Virus record (IMG/VR): IMGVR_UViG_3300033153_003077
Location: 1 to 28,799 of that record
DNA: 28,799 nucleotides
Source of the DNA: a virus
Direction: 5' to 3' (one strand)
Both the position numbers and the translations under genes were made by a program. Shown here one piece after another: positions 18,866 to 28,799 of this stretch; the stretch's first letter is position 1, and each line of letters opens with the position of its first letter. The notes beneath the pieces are model-generated. The model was not told the origin of the DNA. It worked only from the letters and a program-made list of their open reading frames with translations, and did no database searches.

Positions 18866-19806
18866 TCATGATAAATCCATGCCACTAAAGGCCCCCTCTG
18901 TGTAGAAAGTAAGTTTAAGCGCATCAAACCTGTCAGGTGATCGTCGCAATAGATCCTTGATTACTGATTTTTTAGACACCCTCAGCTTACCGTCGTCACC
19001 AATCTGATAAGTATAAGCCGCAAGCTCTTCAAGAAGATACTCGTCAGGGGGGATCATTGCCGTGCCACCACTAAGCCACAGCCTGACTGACCATGCAAGC
19101 TGATCATTTAATAGCCCGAACTCTGCAAACTCGCTCTTCTCTGTTGCTGAACTTGCCACCATGACTTTGATTGCTGGTAAGTGGTGACGTTGTAGATGTG
19201 GTGCCACTCCTGCGCCAAGTCCAGTACCGTCAACCAGAACACGAGAGATTTCTTTCCCTTCACAATTGTCAACTATCTTCTGCTCAGTCTCCGGCAGTTC
19301 ACACTGATCCCAAGACACCAATGGGAACACAAACCCACCATACCTGAAGCATAACACCGTCGAGTCGTTCCCCATTTCTGCTATGTCAGCTCCTATATTT
19401 GCCTTTACGAACTCCGGTGCTACTTCACCATGATGGGCAACATACTGATCATAGCGTGTACGAGCAGCGTCAATCCACTCCTGATTGATCAACGAATTCG
19501 TACCAGCGGCAGGATACTCACCGAGAACTACAGTGGAGAACTGTGGCTCTACTATCTTATATGTCCCTTCAACCAATCCTGTGAGTGTTTTCCCTTGCTG
19601 GTCTGTACACTCCACGCCAGCAAGGTACTCTGGGAGCTCAAATGTACCAGACCCTGCGGTTTCACCATCCTGTAGAGGTCTGCACCACTGATTGATCCTG
19701 AGTAACGTTGTGTTTCTGGTCACGGCACCTGGGGTGATATCGTCACGGCCAGTGACAACTTGAATATGATTAAATGCTGACAGGTTAACTATGGTTATAT
19801 ATTGCA
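18866..19806 (-). CDS. terL: Large terminase subunit, C-terminal (nuclease) part
   Basis: An open frame carrying the nuclease half of the large terminase: TIVNLSAFNHIQVVTGRDDI, PGAVTRNTTLLRINQWCRPL, a first acidic motif in NIGADIAEMGNDSTVLCFRYGG, a second in SRVLVDGTGLGAGVAPHL, and a third in RRSPDRFDALKLTFYTEG. These Asp residues fit the RNase H-like nuclease that cuts concatemers into unit genomes. Recognisable sequence starts near 19806, where it is in the +1 frame relative to the ATPase half (20387-19785). About 15 residues expected between the halves appear to be missing, so this is not a simple one-base shift. No independent ribosome site is apparent. Confidence 0.85.
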
Positions 19807-20387
19807 CAAATCCTTGACGCATCATCACTAGCACATGTCTCAGCACCAGCAAATACTTCATCAGGACAGGCGGAAGCCTCATCAAAAATGAATAAGATAC
19901 CGTTCTTATGATGTTTCCCGCTGAATTTTCCGATCCTCTGCTCTTTAGTACCCGATGATGGGATTGAAACCCCAGTGAGAAAATGATCAGGAGTACGTTG
20001 TATATGCATTGACCTCTGGTTCATCATCTCGAAAATTTCAGGGTGCTTACCAACAATCGTGAATATCTCACCGAATAGGATATTAGTGAGATTAGACAAG
20101 GGAGGGGCTGCTGCGAGATACACCTGTCCTCGTCTACATAAGAAAAACCAGATAGCCAACCTTGCGGCAGAAAACGACTTACCCAGCGCATTGCCTGACT
20201 TCCCAAGAGTGACAGCGTTGTTGGCAACAGACATCATAAGGGTTTTTGTGTCCTCGGTTAAATACTTCTCACCTAAGATGTCCTCACAGAAGCCTGTCGG
20301 GTCGTGAAAGTATTTCGAGTAGTCACTGGATGATTCACCGAGCAACTCACCGAGGTTAACATCCATCCTGTCGAACAACTCAATCAT
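19785..20387 (-). CDS. terL: Large terminase subunit, N-terminal (ATPase) part
   Basis: A 200-aa ORF starting by ATGA overlap with the small terminase gene. It holds the packaging ATPase: Walker A-like SGNALGKSFSAARL near residue 64, an adenine-binding AAAPPLSNLTNILFGEIF segment near 92-110, and Walker B ILFIFDEASACPDEV near 164-178 with catalytic Glu 170. It then reads ASRICAIYNHS and stops; after ICAIYN a normal family member would have about 15 more residues and then the segment seen in the +1 frame (TIVNLSAFNH). The gene thus looks broken by an internal deletion. If truly split, packaging would fail unless the two halves work together. Confidence 0.88.
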   Translation of the reverse strand: MIELFDRMDVNLGELLGESSSDYSKYFHDPTGFCEDILGEKYLTEDTKTLMMSVANNAVTLGKSGNALGKSFSAARLAIWFFLCRRGQVYLAAAPPLSNLTNILFGEIFTIVGKHPEIFEMMNQRSMHIQRTPDHFLTGVSIPSSGTKEQRIGKFSGKHHKNGILFIFDEASACPDEVFAGAETCASDDASRICAIYNHS

Positions 20388-21151: not shown

Positions 21152-21343
21152 TTAAAACAAATCAATCCGCTCATGAAGCAATCCACTGTATGCCATCATT
21201 GCGTTTAGCTGTTCTGCCAGCAGTTTTCTTTCGTAGCTAGAAACAACAGACGACGAAGTGCTATACAAGAAATCGAAAAGACTAACGATCTTTTCATCAA
21301 GTTTTAATTTCTCTTCAAGTACTCTTTCTTGATACTTTTCCAT
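21152..21343 (-). CDS. Small helical protein resembling the crAss001_48-related family
   Basis: A 63-aa protein from ATG 21343, chosen because a strong GGAGGA lies 6-7 bases upstream; a longer form from 21382 lacks support. The sequence MEKYQERVLEEKLKLDEKIV at the start, LLAEQLNAMMAYSGLLHERI near the end and a final DLF match the pattern of a widespread family of ~60-80 aa phage proteins labelled crAss001_48-related (YQ.RV..EK..LD.K ... Q...M..Y...L..RI). They are helical hairpins of unknown function. The assignment is by remembered pattern, not a search. Confidence 0.65.
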   Translation of the reverse strand: MEKYQERVLEEKLKLDEKIVSLFDFLYSTSSSVVSSYERKLLAEQLNAMMAYSGLLHERIDLF

Positions 21344-21512
21344 TTTGTTCCTCCGTAATAAATTGCACAACCAGCGCAACAACGCCGGGGATCGGACGAG
21401 TGTTATAAAGATAATGCTCTACTGTCCCGACTGGCGTGTTTAGTAGTTTTGCAAAGTTTGGGATAGTTAAGTTTAGTTTTTTTCTAATGTTTTGTAATTC
21501 CTGGCCAGTCAT
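21315..21512 (-). CDS. Small HTH (Cro/C1-type) DNA-binding protein
   Basis: A 65-aa ORF starting by ATGA overlap with the 21691 gene. MTGQELQNIRKKLNLTIPNF, AKLLNTPVGTVEHYLYNTRP fits an XRE/Cro helix-turn-helix: helix 1 (QELQNIRKKL), the turn, helix 3 (PVGTVEHYLYNTRPIP). Nothing follows but a short C-terminal helix. The stop lies just inside the next gene. Small stand-alone HTH proteins in early phage clusters often act as transcription regulators; whether this one represses or activates is not visible. Confidence 0.75.
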   Translation of the reverse strand: MTGQELQNIRKKLNLTIPNFAKLLNTPVGTVEHYLYNTRPIPGVVALVVQFITEEQNGKVSRKST

Positions 21513-22030: not shown

Positions 22031-22360
22031 TCATGTCCGTAATGGGCATTGGGACACCACCAGCTTGTCAGTAATCTTTTTAAATACCCATTCGTATTTT
22101 TCTTCTGCTTTAGTTTTACGCAGGCACCAGTTAATTTTTCCACCTTGGTTGGAACCGAATGCTTCTTGCTCTGCATAGTATTTACACTTGGTGCATATTC
22201 CGCTTGTTGATAGTTGATCGCTGTCTGATATGGTGGTTGTTTTTTGTTCTGGTTCTGATGGTTTTGGTTGTGGTGGTTTTGGTGGTGCTGATTGTTTTTT
22301 TGATGCTTGTCCAAAAAGTGCTCTGTCGAGCGTCAGTTTTTTGTATTTTTGAGTTGTCAT
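22031..22360 (-). CDS. Small putative zinc-binding protein
   Basis: A 109-aa ORF with AGAGG before the ATG. The N-terminal half is Pro/Lys/Ser/Thr-rich (ASKKQSAPPKPPQPKPSEPE), probably disordered. The C-terminal half carries a likely zinc site: ICTKCKYY near residue 55, INWCLRK near 75 and SQCPLRT at the end, giving C-x2-C...C...C. Small phage proteins with this layout are common and uncharacterised. A competing 117-aa frame (22314-21961) is Asn/His/Gln-rich and looks like a shadow. The gap from 22030 to 21923 holds nothing I can support. Confidence 0.7.
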   Translation of the reverse strand: MTTQKYKKLTLDRALFGQASKKQSAPPKPPQPKPSEPEQKTTTISDSDQLSTSGICTKCKYYAEQEAFGSNQGGKINWCLRKTKAEEKYEWVFKKITDKLVVSQCPLRT

Positions 22361-22416
22361 GATTGCCTCTTTTTTTCTCTCATAAAAAGGATGCTAATGG
22401 CTTCTTCCTTTAACAT
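22357..22416 (-). CDS. Possible 19-aa leader peptide
   Basis: ATG at 22416 with AAGAGG 4-5 bases upstream, then MLKEEAISILFMREKKRQS and a stop overlapping the next ATG as ATGA. The good ribosome site and exact coupling to the 22360 gene are in its favour; its length makes chance likely. It may only serve to couple translation. Confidence 0.3.
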   Translation of the reverse strand: MLKEEAISILFMREKKRQS

Positions 22417-22425
22417 TTTGCCTCT

Positions 22426-22714
22426 TATCGTAGACGTTGTCCTTTTCTACGATAAGTCTACGATATGCCTCTACGATATTACTTAACTATATAATATATA
22501 TATATATAATATTATAATATCATAGAAAGGTAAAAGAGTGCATTGTTTACATTCTTGCCTCTTTTTATATTTCCACTTTCTTGGGTTCTGTATGTCTGGG
22601 TTTTTTTGCTGTTTCTACGATATCTACGATATTAGGACATTTTAACCTGTCATAGCAATGGGTTACCAAATATGGTAGGTGTTTTCTACGTCATAGAAAC
22701 AGGGGTCTACGATA
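22426..22714. other. Putative replication origin: iterated 9-mers around an A/T tract
   Basis: The 362-base gap between the 22360 gene and the primase-helicase holds seven exact copies of TCTACGATA: plus strand at 22446, 22457, 22470, 22614, 22623 (abutting the previous copy) and 22706, and inverted at 22426-22434. A degenerate copy (TCTACGTCA) is at 22685. Between the two clusters is an almost pure A/T stretch at about 22484-22530. Iterated short sites flanking an A/T-rich unwinding region are the classic layout of an iteron-type origin, and the neighbour is a replicative primase-helicase. Regulatory binding sites are an alternative. Confidence 0.6.
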
Positions 22715-22722
22715 TTTTACCA

Positions 22723-25398
22723 CTAAAATTGACCCTTATAGGGTGTAAAATAGTCTCCATCCCAATCAGTCTCGACCACGTTACTACTAAAGTCATCCCG
22801 CATTTCTTTTATGTCAGCGATAACAAAACACACCATATTTTTGACTATTCTCTTCTTTAGTGAGCCATTAAAGATAGGCTTTCTATCCACTCGTCTTGTC
22901 TTTTGCCAAAACGATGTTGAGTTTTTGGGGTATCTATCGTTCACTGAATTGCTATACAAAAGGTACTCATCGTATATAAAATCGCCACGAAGTATCAAGC
23001 CAGACTCCCAATGATAAGGATCAAAACCATCAACCGATTCATCGCCAGATGCGTCATTTATCCATTCAATTTTATGGCTGGAAAATTCAGGGTTGTTTGG
23101 TGGCGTTACTATATATCCCCTTGTCAGTATTGCGAGCCAGAAAGCCTCTACTGGATCCAAAGATATCAGCTTCTGCTCTTTCATTTCATCCGTTTCAAAT
23201 GGGACTGTAACATCAATATCGTCGTAGTCGTGCGAATTGAGCATGTGATAACAGAGCGCAGCTACACCTCCGTTGTTCTTCTGCTTCTTAACTTTCCCGA
23301 AAAACACACGATCCTGCGCTACAGCGTTATCAAAACGGTAAACTACATACCGCCTTTCATCCATAGCAGCATCAATAGCGTGTTCATTATTCGTTGATAT
23401 CAGGATATTTGTGAAGTTTGGCGTAATAATAGCATCAACCCCTTTGAACTCCACCCGCATCGTGTCCTCTGTGATAAGCCCTTTCATCTTATTTGTTACT
23501 GTCTTGTCACCAGTGAAGAGAGACTCATCAGCATATATCAACAGTTTTCCCATTAATAGGCTATTAAACGCACTGAGCAACTGATTGCCATCGGTAAGCT
23601 GGACGTAATATGCTTTGAAAATTTCCCTGAACCACTCAACAACTGTTCCCTTGCCACAGCCCATGCCACCATGCATAACAAGCGCCACGTTAGATTTTTT
23701 ATGTGGATTAATGAGAATATTCCTGAACCACGCCATAGTGTACCTGAACAGTTCTACCCGCCCAGAACACATAGTGTTAAGCATCAGAGTCTTAAATTCT
23801 GACCAGTCACCTTTTACTGGGGCAACCCTATTAAATCCCCTGAACGAGTTGTAGTATCCCTTTGGTGCTTGCAGACTTGGATCAAATACGAAATCTTCGT
23901 ATGTCCTGCGGGACTCATGACCCATCCACAATTGAGCATTTTCTATGCGCTTTACTTTTCCATCGCCCATTTCAACGAGTGTTTTCTTGTTCTTATAGAA
24001 GTTTTTGAAAGTATCTATGGATAGAAACGACACGTTCATTCCACCTGTCATGTAATCGTGTGTTTCTTTTATTATTGTGAACTTCGACCCTACAAGGCAA
24101 ACAGCATGGCTATCGTTCATTTTAGCGACGGTGCGCTCTATCTCGTCAGAGGTTTCTTTCTTAGCTTCAACCTCTTTCCTGTATCTGGCAAAAGAGACAA
24201 CATGCTCACCATGTGCATTGCTATTGATGAGAGGTTTTTTACCTCGATCTGTATTGGCATAGAAGATAGCCTTTGTTCTGTTCCAGTTGTCGTATTCAGG
24301 TTCTTGCGGATCTGCGAGACGTTTGAAGTGGTACTTATCAGGATCATCCAAAACCTTACTAACAGCAACAGGTTCATCAGCACCCTGAAAGTATAGAACA
24401 GCATCTTCGGGCATGTATCCAGCGATGCCTTCGCTCATCTTTTCTTTTGCTTCTTTCTTCGTACAACCTGTTTTCTTCATTATACTTTGGACACAAACTA
24501 TTTTTCTGGCCTCGTAATTTGGCTTGAGTCCCTTCTTTAGCTCGGCTTTGATCCGTTCCAGTTCTTCTTCTTGTTCGCTAGTAAAGGCTGGTATCAAACT
24601 CATATCTATTACACCACCAGGAATATATTCCATCTCTGGCCTGTCCTGTGTAACACCGTTTAAAAGTCTTGGCGATGCCTCATACCACAGCCTTTCCGAA
24701 CCACAAGCAACACGATCATGAAGAGCATATTGCAGGAACCTTGGGTAATCGCCTTTAGAAATCAGGTAGAAGCCGTGACCATGTAACTGTTCGAGCTTGA
24801 AAACAAGGTCACCAAAGTTTTCTTTGCACTCTATACCAGAACTGATAATAACATAAACATGGGCAGACGTTGAACTCTTCCACGGCTCACCATCTGGAGT
24901 GATGAGTCCTGAAGAAGAAGAGTAGACAATGAGTTTCCCAGCGTCTTTAAACCCTGGGATAATCTCGTCGTAGAATGACATGATGTCAGGCAACGGCATA
25001 TCATTGCCGTCTATGTCGAAGCCGAACAGTGTGTTTTCGTCAGTGAATACAAAGTTATCAGCAATCCGCTGAACGTCACCGTCGAACCAACCGACAGTTC
25101 CTTTTGGTTTAAATTTCTTAGGATCTGCAACGCCTGTGCAGATAGCACGTTGCTCTCCCAGTTTTGGTAATGCTGTTACAAGTTCCTCAAGTGTCTTTTC
25201 TGCTGTGAAGTATTCACCACGCCCAATTTTACCTGTACCGACTTTTTTTATTGTCTCTGTTTCTTCATCCCACAAGAAGGTCTTGCACAACCTGACCCTC
25301 TCTTCTGGGTTGCCTTTGTATGCCTTTGTTACTTTGTTTGCCTTGAATACTGTTATTTTTGCTGTGGGTTGAGTTTGTTTAGAAGTCATGAGAGCCAT
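22723..25398 (-). CDS. Replicative primase-helicase (AEP primase plus SF3 helicase)
   Basis: An 891-aa protein with two parts. The N-terminal ~270 residues resemble an archaeo-eukaryotic type primase: LFGFDIDGND near 124-133 supplies metal-binding acidic residues (D128, D130), and SSTSAHVYVI near 175-184 supplies the conserved His. The C-terminal part is a superfamily 3 helicase: Walker A VMHGGMGCGKGT near 574-585, Walker B KLLIYADES near 618-626, and a sensor segment NFTNILISTNNEHA near 661-674 followed by ERRYVVYRF. Such fused proteins prime and unwind phage DNA at the origin. The start overlaps the nuclease gene by 20 bases; an in-frame ATG three codons later is also possible. The ORF looks intact. 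Confidence 0.88.
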   Translation of the reverse strand: MALMTSKQTQPTAKITVFKANKVTKAYKGNPEERVRLCKTFLWDEETETIKKVGTGKIGRGEYFTAEKTLEELVTALPKLGEQRAICTGVADPKKFKPKGTVGWFDGDVQRIADNFVFTDENTLFGFDIDGNDMPLPDIMSFYDEIIPGFKDAGKLIVYSSSSGLITPDGEPWKSSTSAHVYVIISSGIECKENFGDLVFKLEQLHGHGFYLISKGDYPRFLQYALHDRVACGSERLWYEASPRLLNGVTQDRPEMEYIPGGVIDMSLIPAFTSEQEEELERIKAELKKGLKPNYEARKIVCVQSIMKKTGCTKKEAKEKMSEGIAGYMPEDAVLYFQGADEPVAVSKVLDDPDKYHFKRLADPQEPEYDNWNRTKAIFYANTDRGKKPLINSNAHGEHVVSFARYRKEVEAKKETSDEIERTVAKMNDSHAVCLVGSKFTIIKETHDYMTGGMNVSFLSIDTFKNFYKNKKTLVEMGDGKVKRIENAQLWMGHESRRTYEDFVFDPSLQAPKGYYNSFRGFNRVAPVKGDWSEFKTLMLNTMCSGRVELFRYTMAWFRNILINPHKKSNVALVMHGGMGCGKGTVVEWFREIFKAYYVQLTDGNQLLSAFNSLLMGKLLIYADESLFTGDKTVTNKMKGLITEDTMRVEFKGVDAIITPNFTNILISTNNEHAIDAAMDERRYVVYRFDNAVAQDRVFFGKVKKQKNNGGVAALCYHMLNSHDYDDIDVTVPFETDEMKEQKLISLDPVEAFWLAILTRGYIVTPPNNPEFSSHKIEWINDASGDESVDGFDPYHWESGLILRGDFIYDEYLLYSNSVNDRYPKNSTSFWQKTRRVDRKPIFNGSLKKRIVKNMVCFVIADIKEMRDDFSSNVVETDWDGDYFTPYKGQF

Positions 25399-26336: not shown

Positions 26337-27272
26337 TTAGTCACCACTGTTACCCCTGTCTGTTTCTGATCTGTATAATTGTTCGCCAAGAAATGTTTGT
26401 CTGGAAAACTGTGAGTTGTTTCTTATCGCTCTTGATACTGTTTTCTTTTGTCCAATTACGTGGCACTCTGTTTTGAAACGTGAGAACGCAACATAGACAA
26501 GCTGTCTGTTTAGCATGAACGAATGACTTTTGTCAGCTATTATGATGCCGTATTCATAGCCGCTGCCCTGGGCAGAATGGACTGATACACAGAACCCTAA
26601 AATCATATTGAACATTGATTGCTTTGAAGAATAGTGATACTGCTTACCGTTGTATTCTACAATTACCCCATCGCCTGACAGTGCGATGATGTTGCCAATA
26701 TACCCGTTAAACACCCCAAGGTCGTAATCGTTCTTTGTTTGCTTAACCCTATCGCCTACACGAAATTTGAACTTACCTACTTCTATAAAAGGCGTGTCAT
26801 CAAGGCATGGGTTAAGCATCTCCTGCAAGTATTCATTCATCGCTGTTATGCCGACTCCCGTAGAGTGTTGCGGGGATAGTACAACATAATCCTTACCTTC
26901 GTCAAACCATGGCTTTGATATCTTGTATGTCATTGCCAGGATCTGTTCATGCCTTGCAGTTGAATCATCATTGTAGTCAGCATCTGTCTTGTGGAGAAAA
27001 AGATCATCTACCAACGCTCCACCAAGGGTGTGATTCCCTTCTGTTCCCCACGTTATAGCCTTACCTGCACGACAAAGCTGTGACGCATCAGCGATTAAAG
27101 AACCTTGCTTCTGCCGCCAGCAAACCTTTAACTCATTTACTAAGTGCTGACTTGTTCTGCTGTTTACTATATCATTGAACGGGCAACCAGCGCCAACAGG
27201 ATTAAGCTGTGCAGGATCTCCAGCAAAAACAATAGTGGCATTATAAGATACGGAATAAAGTATGAGGATTCG
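26337..27272 (-). CDS. RecD-like helicase, C-terminal part (frame-shifted)
   Basis: An open frame of about 312 codons, with no good start of its own, that continues the helicase in the -1 frame. It begins with motif III (ATIVFAGDPAQLNPVGAG at about 27241-27188), then HLVNELKVCWRQKQGSLIAD, the barrel domain (KFRVGDRVKQTKNDYDLGVF, NGYIGNIIALSGDGVIVEYN), motif V (SVHSAQGSGYEYGIIIADKS) and motif VI (NRQLVYVAFSRFK). These are the second RecA-like domain of RecD2-type SF1B helicases. Several residues expected between Walker B and motif III are missing at the break (27232-27272). Confidence 0.8.
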   Translation of the reverse strand, partial: RILILYSVSYNATIVFAGDPAQLNPVGAGCPFNDIVNSRTSQHLVNELKVCWRQKQGSLIADASQLCRAGKAITWGTEGNHTLGGALVDDLFLHKTDADYNDDSTARHEQILAMTYKISKPWFDEGKDYVVLSPQHSTGVGITAMNEYLQEMLNPCLDDTPFIEVGKFKFRVGDRVKQTKNDYDLGVFNGYIGNIIALSGDGVIVEYNGKQYHYSSKQSMFNMILGFCVSVHSAQGSGYEYGIIIADKSHSFMLNRQLVYVAFSRFKTECHVIGQKKTVSRAIRNNSQFSRQTFLGEQLYRSETDRGNSGD

Positions 27273-27610
27273 TCAACGAACACAAGCTCTGCGTTGAGCA
27301 TATTTTCAGTTCCATGCACCCACTCCACCCCCCGACAACCCAGCATCCGGTGTATAGTCATTGCATTTTGTGGCATTCCTAACTGGGCAATGCTATGCTG
27401 TAGCACTTCTGCCGCTTTGCCAGTTGTTGCACAGAAGAATATCTTACTGGGTGACACGCCATAGTTTTCAATTGCTTCTATTGTTATGTTTTTTATAACT
27501 GTACTCTTTCCGAATCCACCACCACCGCACAGGACTACTGTTCTGTTTCTGTTTTTAAGTATGTTCGATACTGCTTCGTGTTGAGAGTCGTCTAGTGTTA
27601 TTGTTGTCAT
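27167..27610 (-). CDS. RecD-like helicase, ATPase N-terminal part
   Basis: A 147-aa ORF starting by ATGA overlap with the KilA-N gene. It opens with the Q-motif-like TITLDDSQHEAVSNIL, then Walker A VVLCGGGGFGKST (residues 25-37), motif Ia FFCATTGKAAEVL (58-70), TIHRML (85-90) and Walker B ELVFVDESS (108-116). These belong to the first RecA-like domain of RecD2-type 5'-3' helicases. After VDESSYFIPYLI the frame loses homology, and the -1 frame carries on with motif III. The N-terminal helix-hairpin-helix domain of RecD2 is encoded separately upstream at 28322-28799. Confidence 0.82.
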   Translation of the reverse strand: MTTITLDDSQHEAVSNILKNRNRTVVLCGGGGFGKSTVIKNITIEAIENYGVSPSKIFFCATTGKAAEVLQHSIAQLGMPQNAMTIHRMLGCRGVEWVHGTENMLNAELVFVDESSYFIPYLIMPLLFLLEILHSLILLALVARSMI

Positions 27611-28230
27611 GGCTTAGCCTTAGAGATAGCTTTGTTTATAACAACATTTATATCGACAGACATATCAGCCAGCAATGCGATGTTGTTCTGTATTGTGTCT
27701 CGTAACTTCAACTGTCCCTCATTGGCACAATTCCACCGTGACCTGCCGTAACCCACGCCACATGCTGCCGCTATTGCGTTGGCAATCATTGGATAATATT
27801 TCGGGGACATGTTGAAACTGTTATCTAGCGCAATATTCATAGCCTTGAACGAGTCTCCAGAATTATCTCTAAACATCAAGAGATTATCGTAGAACCATTT
27901 TAAGATTGCTACTTTTATCTTCTGGTCATACCACATGGCAACATCAAGGAAAACAAGAGGGTGAGCATACTGCCCGCCCCCTCTGCCTCTTTTTACAACT
28001 TTAAGTTGCTCAACAGTTATCCCCTCTGCTATAGCAACCTCTTTCATAAATTCCTTAGCTTCTTGCGTCTGGAAATACTGGTTCAAATCTTTCTTTACCA
28101 ACAATCCTCTGGCTTCCCTCGATTTATTTCCCGCTATACTCAGGTCGTTAAGATTTAGGTATCCGGTTTTATGGTTCTGCCGAATAACACACCCGTCGAA
28201 TTCTCTTTCCATTATCTGTGTCGTCTTCAT
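27607..28230 (-). CDS. KilA-N domain protein inserted in a RecD2-like gene
   Basis: A 207-aa protein with GGGGAAG before the ATG. The N-terminal ~120 residues are a KilA-N domain: FDGCVIRQNHKTGYLNLNDL near 11-30, then the signature RGRGGGQYAHPLVFLDVAMW near 81-100 and KVAILKWFYDNL near 106-117. KilA-N is a DNA-binding domain found in phage and large-virus regulators. The C-terminal ~85 residues (KYYPMIANAIAAACGVGYGR, LRDTIQNNIALLADMSVDIN) are helical and may oligomerise. It is translationally coupled to the helicase ATPase piece and sits exactly at the linker between two RecD2 domains. Confidence 0.85.
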   Translation of the reverse strand: MKTTQIMEREFDGCVIRQNHKTGYLNLNDLSIAGNKSREARGLLVKKDLNQYFQTQEAKEFMKEVAIAEGITVEQLKVVKRGRGGGQYAHPLVFLDVAMWYDQKIKVAILKWFYDNLLMFRDNSGDSFKAMNIALDNSFNMSPKYYPMIANAIAAACGVGYGRSRWNCANEGQLKLRDTIQNNIALLADMSVDINVVINKAISKAKP

Positions 28231-28263
28231 AAATACTTCCCCTATGTTTAATTAATTGATCCG

Positions 28264-28291
28264 TAAAAGATATATTATAATATATCTTTTA
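28264..28291. promoter_or_regulatory. 28-base perfect A/T palindrome upstream of KilA-N gene
   Basis: A perfect 28-base palindrome (arm TAAAAGATATATTA), 34 bases before the KilA-N start codon. A DNA-binding KilA-N protein beside a perfect palindrome suggests an operator for autoregulation. It also contains a TATAAT-like element, though no -35 box lies at a normal distance. The A/T-only stem is too weak for a normal terminator. Confidence 0.5.
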
Positions 28292-28321
28292 TCAACGGTA
28301 TAATTAAGCCAAGGTTGCAGG

Positions 28322-28799
28322 TTAAGTCAAACTATCAAGGATAACCTGCTCGCACCCACGCAAATACGTGTCATATACCTTGCCATCTTCCACAATCACC
28401 TGACCAGATTCTTGTAACATGTATACCTGTGAACGAACTTCTTTCTCATCAGGACAAAGATGCAACTCCCTGACAAGACCAACCTTTGCAGATTCAAACA
28501 ATTGTGACACAACCATTTTTGTAAGCTCCCAGCCTCGCATAGACGTATTCCCGCCATTGACTTGCGAATCCCGCAAACAGTATTGAATACATGCTTGCGT
28601 TCTGGCTGGGTTATCTACTGATATCCCTGCTTTCAATGCAATCTTGTCCACAGAAAGGAACCCCATCCCATGCAACGTTGTCATCTGGTATGGGTTCTCT
28701 GATATGACTTCCTTTGTTCTGTCACCGAACTCACGATAAATCTTGTTTGCAATATTATCAGTCAATCCTAATCCAAGCAGGAAAACAATATGCTCGTAA
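28322..28799 (-). CDS. RecD2-like helicase, N-terminal helix-hairpin-helix part (partial)
   Basis: The frame is open through the right edge of the window, so the start is not seen; the TTG at 28765 is internal. HIVFLLGLGLTDNIANKIYR, EFGDRTKEVISENPYQMTTL, HGMGFLSVDKIALKAGISVD and ACIQYCLRDSQVNGGNTSM match the tandem helix-hairpin-helix region that precedes the ATPase in RecD2 (SF1B 5'-3' DNA helicase). It ends at KVYDTYLRGCEQVILDSLT and a stop, just where RecD2 would run into the ATPase domain, which here restarts at 27610 after the KilA-N gene. The region reads naturally up to the stop. Confidence 0.82.
   Translation of the reverse strand, partial: YEHIVFLLGLGLTDNIANKIYREFGDRTKEVISENPYQMTTLHGMGFLSVDKIALKAGISVDNPARTQACIQYCLRDSQVNGGNTSMRGWELTKMVVSQLFESAKVGLVRELHLCPDEKEVRSQVYMLQESGQVIVEDGKVYDTYLRGCEQVILDSLT

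Follow-up and report, generated by a model that had tools for sequence, protein, structure and literature searches.

The virus record IMGVR_UViG_3300033153_003077 of the IMG/VR database (28,799 bases, classed as linear; the entire record was analysed and is called here the window, and all 9-mer counts in it cover the window only) carries, directly behind the gene of a primase-helicase with a DUF5906 domain, an array of 9-bp repeats around an A/T tract. We argue that this array is very probably the iteron-type replication origin of the phage, bound by the neighbouring primase-helicase; origin activity is what we infer from the arrangement of the repeats and from its recurrence behind homologous helicase genes. 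The primase-helicase encoded just upstream would bind the 9-bp sites through its C-terminal winged helix, the helicase would assemble on two half-arrays, probably as two hexameric rings face to face, the A/T tract between the half-arrays would be melted, and replication would start in both directions.

The repeat array of the window

The array sits inside the gap of 362 bases (22361-22722) between the stop codon of the primase gene and the next gene. Seven exact copies of the 9-mer TCTACGATA, two of them abutting, together with one degenerate copy, were counted in 22426-22714 just as a first-pass annotation, made from the letters alone, had stated; six of the exact copies are on the + strand and one is on the - strand. 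The A/T tract of ~45 bases that the same annotation had noticed is also there, with iterons on both sides of it, and the nearest iteron begins 8 bases 3' of the primase stop, so that, as in origins of phage-inducible chromosomal islands (PICI), the sites lie directly 3' of the proposed initiator gene. The features are as follows (offsets are counted from the primase stop, and the block names refer to the layout described in the next section):

22426-22714, unstranded: iteron array and candidate replication origin, 7 exact and 1 degenerate 9-bp sites around the A/T tract
22706-22714, + strand: iteron TCTACGATA nearest to the primase gene, offset 8
22685-22693, + strand: possible degenerate iteron, 2 mismatches (~1 such match in the region could be chance)
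22671-22679, - strand: possible degenerate iteron, 2 mismatches, which may be chance
22623-22631, + strand: iteron of block B, offset 91, abutting the site at 22614-22622
22614-22622, + strand: iteron of block B, offset 100
22518-22526, - strand: degenerate iteron TCTATGATA, 1 mismatch, offset 196, placed and oriented as expected for the inverted block C
22476-22520, unstranded: A/T tract with 43/45 A+T, proposed DNA unwinding element
22470-22478, + strand: iteron of block D, offset 244
22457-22465, + strand: iteron of block D, offset 257
22446-22454, + strand: iteron of block D, offset 268; its distance of 11 bp to the next site is enriched among array-bearing loci
22426-22434, - strand: outermost iteron, inverted, offset 288

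The array is far beyond chance, since only 0.07 exact copies of TCTACGATA are expected in the shuffled whole window (never more than 1), and the best repeat score in the 362-base gap is 11.8, as compared to a maximum of 4.3 in 200 dinucleotide shuffles. An even scatter of the 9-mer, which the first-pass annotation had named as evidence against an origin, is not what is seen: 7 of the 8 exact copies in the window lie within 289 bases. The annotation, which had looked for copies elsewhere by eye and noticed none, had missed the eighth; this one is found at 27885-27893 on the - strand, inside the KilA-N-domain gene, 5.2 kb from the array. This copy is probably incidental, given that outside the arrays of related loci the lineage's own iteron is no commoner than expected by chance (1 copy vs 1.2 expected, and 5 vs 3.5).

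Arrays behind homologous helicase genes

Close relatives of the window primase were not found in IMG/VR. The protein was aligned with homologues from cultured phages at ~21-25% identity, and this alignment was then used to fetch 80 IMG/VR loci. At each locus, the frame containing the match was taken and the most over-represented 9-mer (both strands, one mismatch) was scored in the 500 bases 3' of its stop codon; regions 5' of the gene, and control windows drawn from these loci, were scored likewise. The threshold of 6.9 is about the 99th percentile of 682 control windows. This threshold is reached 3' of the gene at 19/85 IMG/VR and phage loci (the IMG/VR set includes some near-duplicate contigs), and no 5' region scores above 5. 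As a positive control, the same scan applied to P4 picks out crr, directly 3' of the alpha gene. In the protein tree, the arrays cluster in clades around the window, and their 9-mers differ among lineages, namely TACACTAAC, GTAACGCAT, AGTGGTGAC, GAACAATCT, CCCTGACCA and others. A scan of IMG/VR for paired TCTACGATA returned 94 stretches, mostly single pairs or repeats with multiple-of-3 spacing, none of them like the array, and the portal relatives (L009-L012, ~59% identical) have, in the parts read, neither TCTACGATA nor a comparable array.

The array-bearing loci were selected for repeats, not for repeat spacing or position, and yet they share a layout. Abutting 9-bp repeats occur in 25/28 array-bearing loci, as compared to 7/44 other loci and 23/200 controls, and a spacing of 11 in 12/28, 2/44 and 12/200, respectively. 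Refinement of the motifs places a block B at ~+65 to +110 from the stop and an inverted block C at ~+160 to +227, with further sites beyond; where both blocks are present, they are inverted relative to each other and lie 93-121 bp apart (11/11 loci). Locus L139, with a different 9-mer, even shares the window's block D offsets 257 and 268. The array is thus conserved in place and layout, not in sequence: it recurs as an arrangement in relatives that share the helicase, which is the conservation on which the first-pass annotation had staked its reading, and it is the letters that change between lineages.

The layout recurs in cultured phages. In Presto, a phage of P. aeruginosa PA14, block B sites are at 94 and 103, inverted block C sites at 207, 216 and 225, and block D sites at 268, 279 and 299; in Stenotrophomonas phage S1, the corresponding sites are at 88 and 97 (B), 190, 199 and 208 (inverted C), and 251 and 272 (D). 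Achromobacter phage JWT, Klebsiella phage RAH2 and PaMx28 likewise score above 6.9. In the model Bordetella phage BPP-1 (L194), pairs of inverted, abutting GTTTGCCTC repeats are found behind the open reading frame (ORF) bbp28, 464-572 nt 3' of the primase stop; they are a possible origin of this phage, below the score threshold and hence a lead only. In phage S1 (L199, 2454-2804), the annotated ORF gp2 has its start at the primase stop, so that it overlaps with the iteron array; its start, or the entire ORF, may be misannotated.

A test on the GTDB genomes

As an independent test, a second alignment was applied once to the GTDB genome collection, in which 76 loci had enough sequence. Arrays were found 3' of the gene at 44/76 loci, as compared to 0/75 regions 5' of the gene and 3/548 controls, in a set whose loci are not all independent, several genomes being related and prophages and satellites being pooled. 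After refinement, these arrays are very regular, with 12 as the commonest number of sites (17/44). In L233, for example, the sites at 2+, 11+, 30-, 66+, 75+ and 84+ are followed by their mirror image at 196-, 205-, 214-, 250+, 269- and 278-. Across the GTDB set there are 179 mirror-image site pairs, as compared to 102.5 +/- 5.8 in a null in which the blocks were kept while their order, gaps and orientation were shuffled. Near-perfect mirror-image arrays of 12 sites, behind genes that encode the helicase only, were seen in L233, L235 and similar GTDB loci (Methylobacterium and other genomes).

The partner protein

The proposed initiator and its parts are encoded as follows:

22723-25398, - strand: primase-helicase of 891 aa, DUF5906, with a match to a PHROG DNA primase
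23350-23676, - strand: DUF5906 helicase domain, residues 575-683
22780-22998, - strand: C-terminal winged-helix-like domain, residues ~801-873, from an AlphaFold2 model; proposed iteron-binding part

The AlphaFold2 model is unreliable before residue ~410 and good for the helicase and the C-terminal unit; the C-terminal block forms a helix-helix-strand-strand-helix unit with predicted confidence (pLDDT) mostly of 80-94 and one loop at 45. The best structural matches are the C-terminal region of the NrS-1 polymerase (E 1e-18) and the Pri-Rep of SaPI5 (E 1e-10), and the NrS-1 polymerase is matched by a sequence profile as well (E 1e-21). The window helicase is homologous to both proteins. For the N-terminus there is only the match to the PHROG DNA primase (E 8e-7).

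Which part of such a protein goes together with the array can be judged from the family. Array-bearing helicases carry TOPRIM/CHC2 modules in L113-L115, L117, L119, L120, L149, L162 and S1, modules of the archaeo-eukaryotic primase (AEP) type in L127, L133, L136, L141, L143, L170, L178 and Presto, and no fused primase in L233 and L235; common to all the array-bearing proteins are the DUF5906 helicase and the C-terminus. Because the forms with a TOPRIM primase, with an AEP primase and with none all retain the array, the part that acts with it is probably the helicase together with the C-terminal winged helix. The suggestion of the first-pass annotation that the repeats are initiator-binding sites and the A/T tract an unwinding element beside the primase-helicase is supported in substance; the binder it had proposed, the N-terminal part of this protein or a small helix-turn-helix (HTH) protein, is likely to give way to the C-terminal winged helix. 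More generally, N-terminal primase modules have been exchanged before one helicase family in the IMG/VR and GTDB loci L113-L283, with the downstream array kept.

From here, a broader proposal can be made, albeit a tentative one that we hold with somewhat less than even confidence: the DUF5906 helicase might have a cognate origin of fixed geometry, in which each of two mirror-image halves holds as many as six 9-bp sites, with one for every subunit in a pair of hexamers set head to head, found across tailed phages, prophages and other elements. The sequence of the site would have been replaced many times, with the geometry and the 3' position kept, and the origin would thus be predictable from sequence. 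For most tailed phages known from metagenomes only, the origin is unknown; if the origin reading is right, it could be located from sequence for every phage or element with a helicase of the array-bearing clades, including the culturable Presto (on the laboratory strain PA14), S1 and JWT. The winged helices of these helicases, with their matching and diverging 9-bp sites, would form a natural series for studying how the specificity of an initiator changes.

Weighing the origin reading and its alternatives

Several observations weigh against the origin reading. The aligned homologues are at most 30% identical overall. A large clade of the same helicase family, whose members mostly have their own PolA, is without the array; among contigs of at least 35 kb, PolA is encoded in ~6/11 array-bearing ones vs 19/20 array-lacking ones, and, because many array-bearing contigs are short, the lack of PolA in array-bearing phages is a tendency only. 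A change of GC skew, which the first-pass annotation had proposed as a check, was sought in the window, and there is no sign change across the array. Finally, block C of the window consists of one degenerate site only, so that the array is an imperfect example, and it is a worn or asymmetric member of its class because its own mirror symmetry is not significant (p = 0.75).

The repeats could instead be operators, through which a regulator of the phage, for example the small HTH protein, would control the downstream genes in an early/late switch. The array does lie between a replication gene and a co-directional operon that reaches the terminase and structural genes, and small HTH-like proteins are encoded nearby. 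In the relatives, however, the array keeps its position with respect to the helicase stop, and the genes that follow differ; promoter-like matches in the region are not in excess (4 vs 2.1 +/- 1.6 in shuffles), abutting 9-bp sites in mirror-image sets on either side of a spacer are unusual for operators, and the iteron is confined to the array. We therefore regard operators as an improbable explanation; a second, regulatory role of the repeats may exist beside the origin role. It is the family, too, that makes it highly improbable that the 9-mers are template sites for de novo DNA synthesis by the primase, as would be suggested by the homology of the helicase part to the NrS-1 polymerase, which starts at the 8-nt sequence 5'-TTTGGTTA-3' (PMC8718748): the array is kept at loci with a TOPRIM primase or with no fused primase, and the NrS-1 genome holds only two copies of its polymerase's site (PMC7102993).

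An origin of the pRN1 kind, in which strand pairing rather than the repeats is recognised, has in its favour that the strand, as single-stranded DNA, folds better than shuffles (z = -5.4), and that a stem-loop 3' of the replication gene is required in pRN1, as has likewise been suggested for Bordetella phages (PMC4234260). Yet the inverted 9-mers and the ATAT tract account for the predicted folding, and both the abutting direct repeats and the simultaneous replacement of the 9-mer in all copies throughout a lineage are explained by protein binding, not by pairing, which renders this alternative very doubtful. That the small terminase binds the repeats as a packaging site (cos or pac) is hardly tenable. 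Terminase genes do follow downstream at a distance of 2-6 kb, on the same strand, both in the window and in several relatives, but Presto, with the same layout, has its terminase and the neighbouring gene ~12-14 kb away, on the opposite strand and near the end of the record, and the P4 repeats 3' of alpha have no terminase there. For the class, this reading is rejected through Presto; in the window itself, the likely gene of the small terminase is ~1.6 kb downstream of the repeats, with several small ORFs in between.

Gene context

All recognisable genes of the window are on the - strand, in the order RecD2-like helicase pieces, KilA-N protein, nuclease-like protein, primase-helicase, small genes, terminase, and portal, capsid and head-closure genes. 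Close to the array lie:

22031-22360, - strand: gene next downstream of the array, with its start at 22360, for a small protein of unknown function
21315-21512: small HTH protein

Since portal, major head protein and head-closure proteins are encoded in the window, the replicon is a phage and not a PICI, a satellite whose virion genes are supplied by a helper phage. The record of 28,799 bases is probably a fragment. No known RNA families were found in the window. Two of its genes appear broken. The large terminase (18866-20387, - strand) seems to be divided into two overlapping ORFs in different frames (19785-20387 and 18866-19885), apparently owing to a single frameshift, an assembly error or a natural break. 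The RecD2-like helicase (PHROG 4412; 26337-28798, - strand) is in three pieces: the KilA-N-domain ORF (27607-28230) separates its HHH part from the helicase part, and a frameshift appears to lie between 27167 and 27014.

Comparison with known systems

Among open-licence papers, none was found on iteron origins behind DUF5906 helicases in phages. The NrS-1 phage polymerase has a homologous hexameric helicase region, but its genome holds one recognition site on each strand, two in all, and no array has been reported for it (PMC7102993). In pRN1, with its ORF904, the origin region, and in the Bordetella phages BIP-1/BPP-1 the proposed origin region, also lies 3' of a gene for a primase-superfamily 3 (SF3) helicase-winged helix protein (PMC4234260). 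For the AEP-SF3 helicase-winged helix proteins, a stem-loop origin has been proposed, and no iteron origin was found in BIP-1 (PMC4234260); pRN1 has a stem-loop without iterons, whereas the window has iterons and so departs from the pRN1 type.

P4 is closer in that alpha is a multifunctional primase-helicase with a repeat-binding C-terminal winged helix, and in that the crr repeats lie directly 3' of its gene. Unlike the window, P4 has two repeat regions, ori and crr, separated by over 4 kb, and its helicase belongs to another subfamily. In P4, ori1 and crr are two alpha-binding regions; one array is seen in the linear, possibly incomplete contig of the window. The distance from the TCTACGATA copy at 27885 to the array resembles the separation of ori1 and crr. 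In SCCmec, the initiator helicase Cch2 uses its C-terminal domain to bind direct repeats that lie downstream of the gene encoding it (PMC7581432); the putative origin there differs in having three iterons only, a separate polymerase and a helper protein.

The closest parallel is the pri-rep-ori module of PICI, both SaPI and Gram-negative ones. The tested PICI origins consist of two sets of iterons flanking an AT-rich region, 3' of pri-rep (PMC6092414), and for EcCICFT073 the replication of a plasmid with pri-rep and ori was tested (PMC6092414). The SaPI Rep is described as recognising the iterons by its C-terminal domain and appears to bind as two hexamers (PMC7581432), and the SaPI5 Pri-Rep is among the best structural matches of the window helicase. 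The window differs from PICI in its portal, capsid and head-closure genes, its DUF5906 helicase, its abutting 9-bp sites and an initiator that is only distantly similar, with foldseek identity of 13-16%. By analogy, the site most likely works like a PICI/SaPI origin. In 2018, the layout of the PICI origin was said to be absent from all other known bacterial replicons (PMC6092414); with the array described here, a design then reported as unique to these satellites would extend to phages with virion genes of their own.
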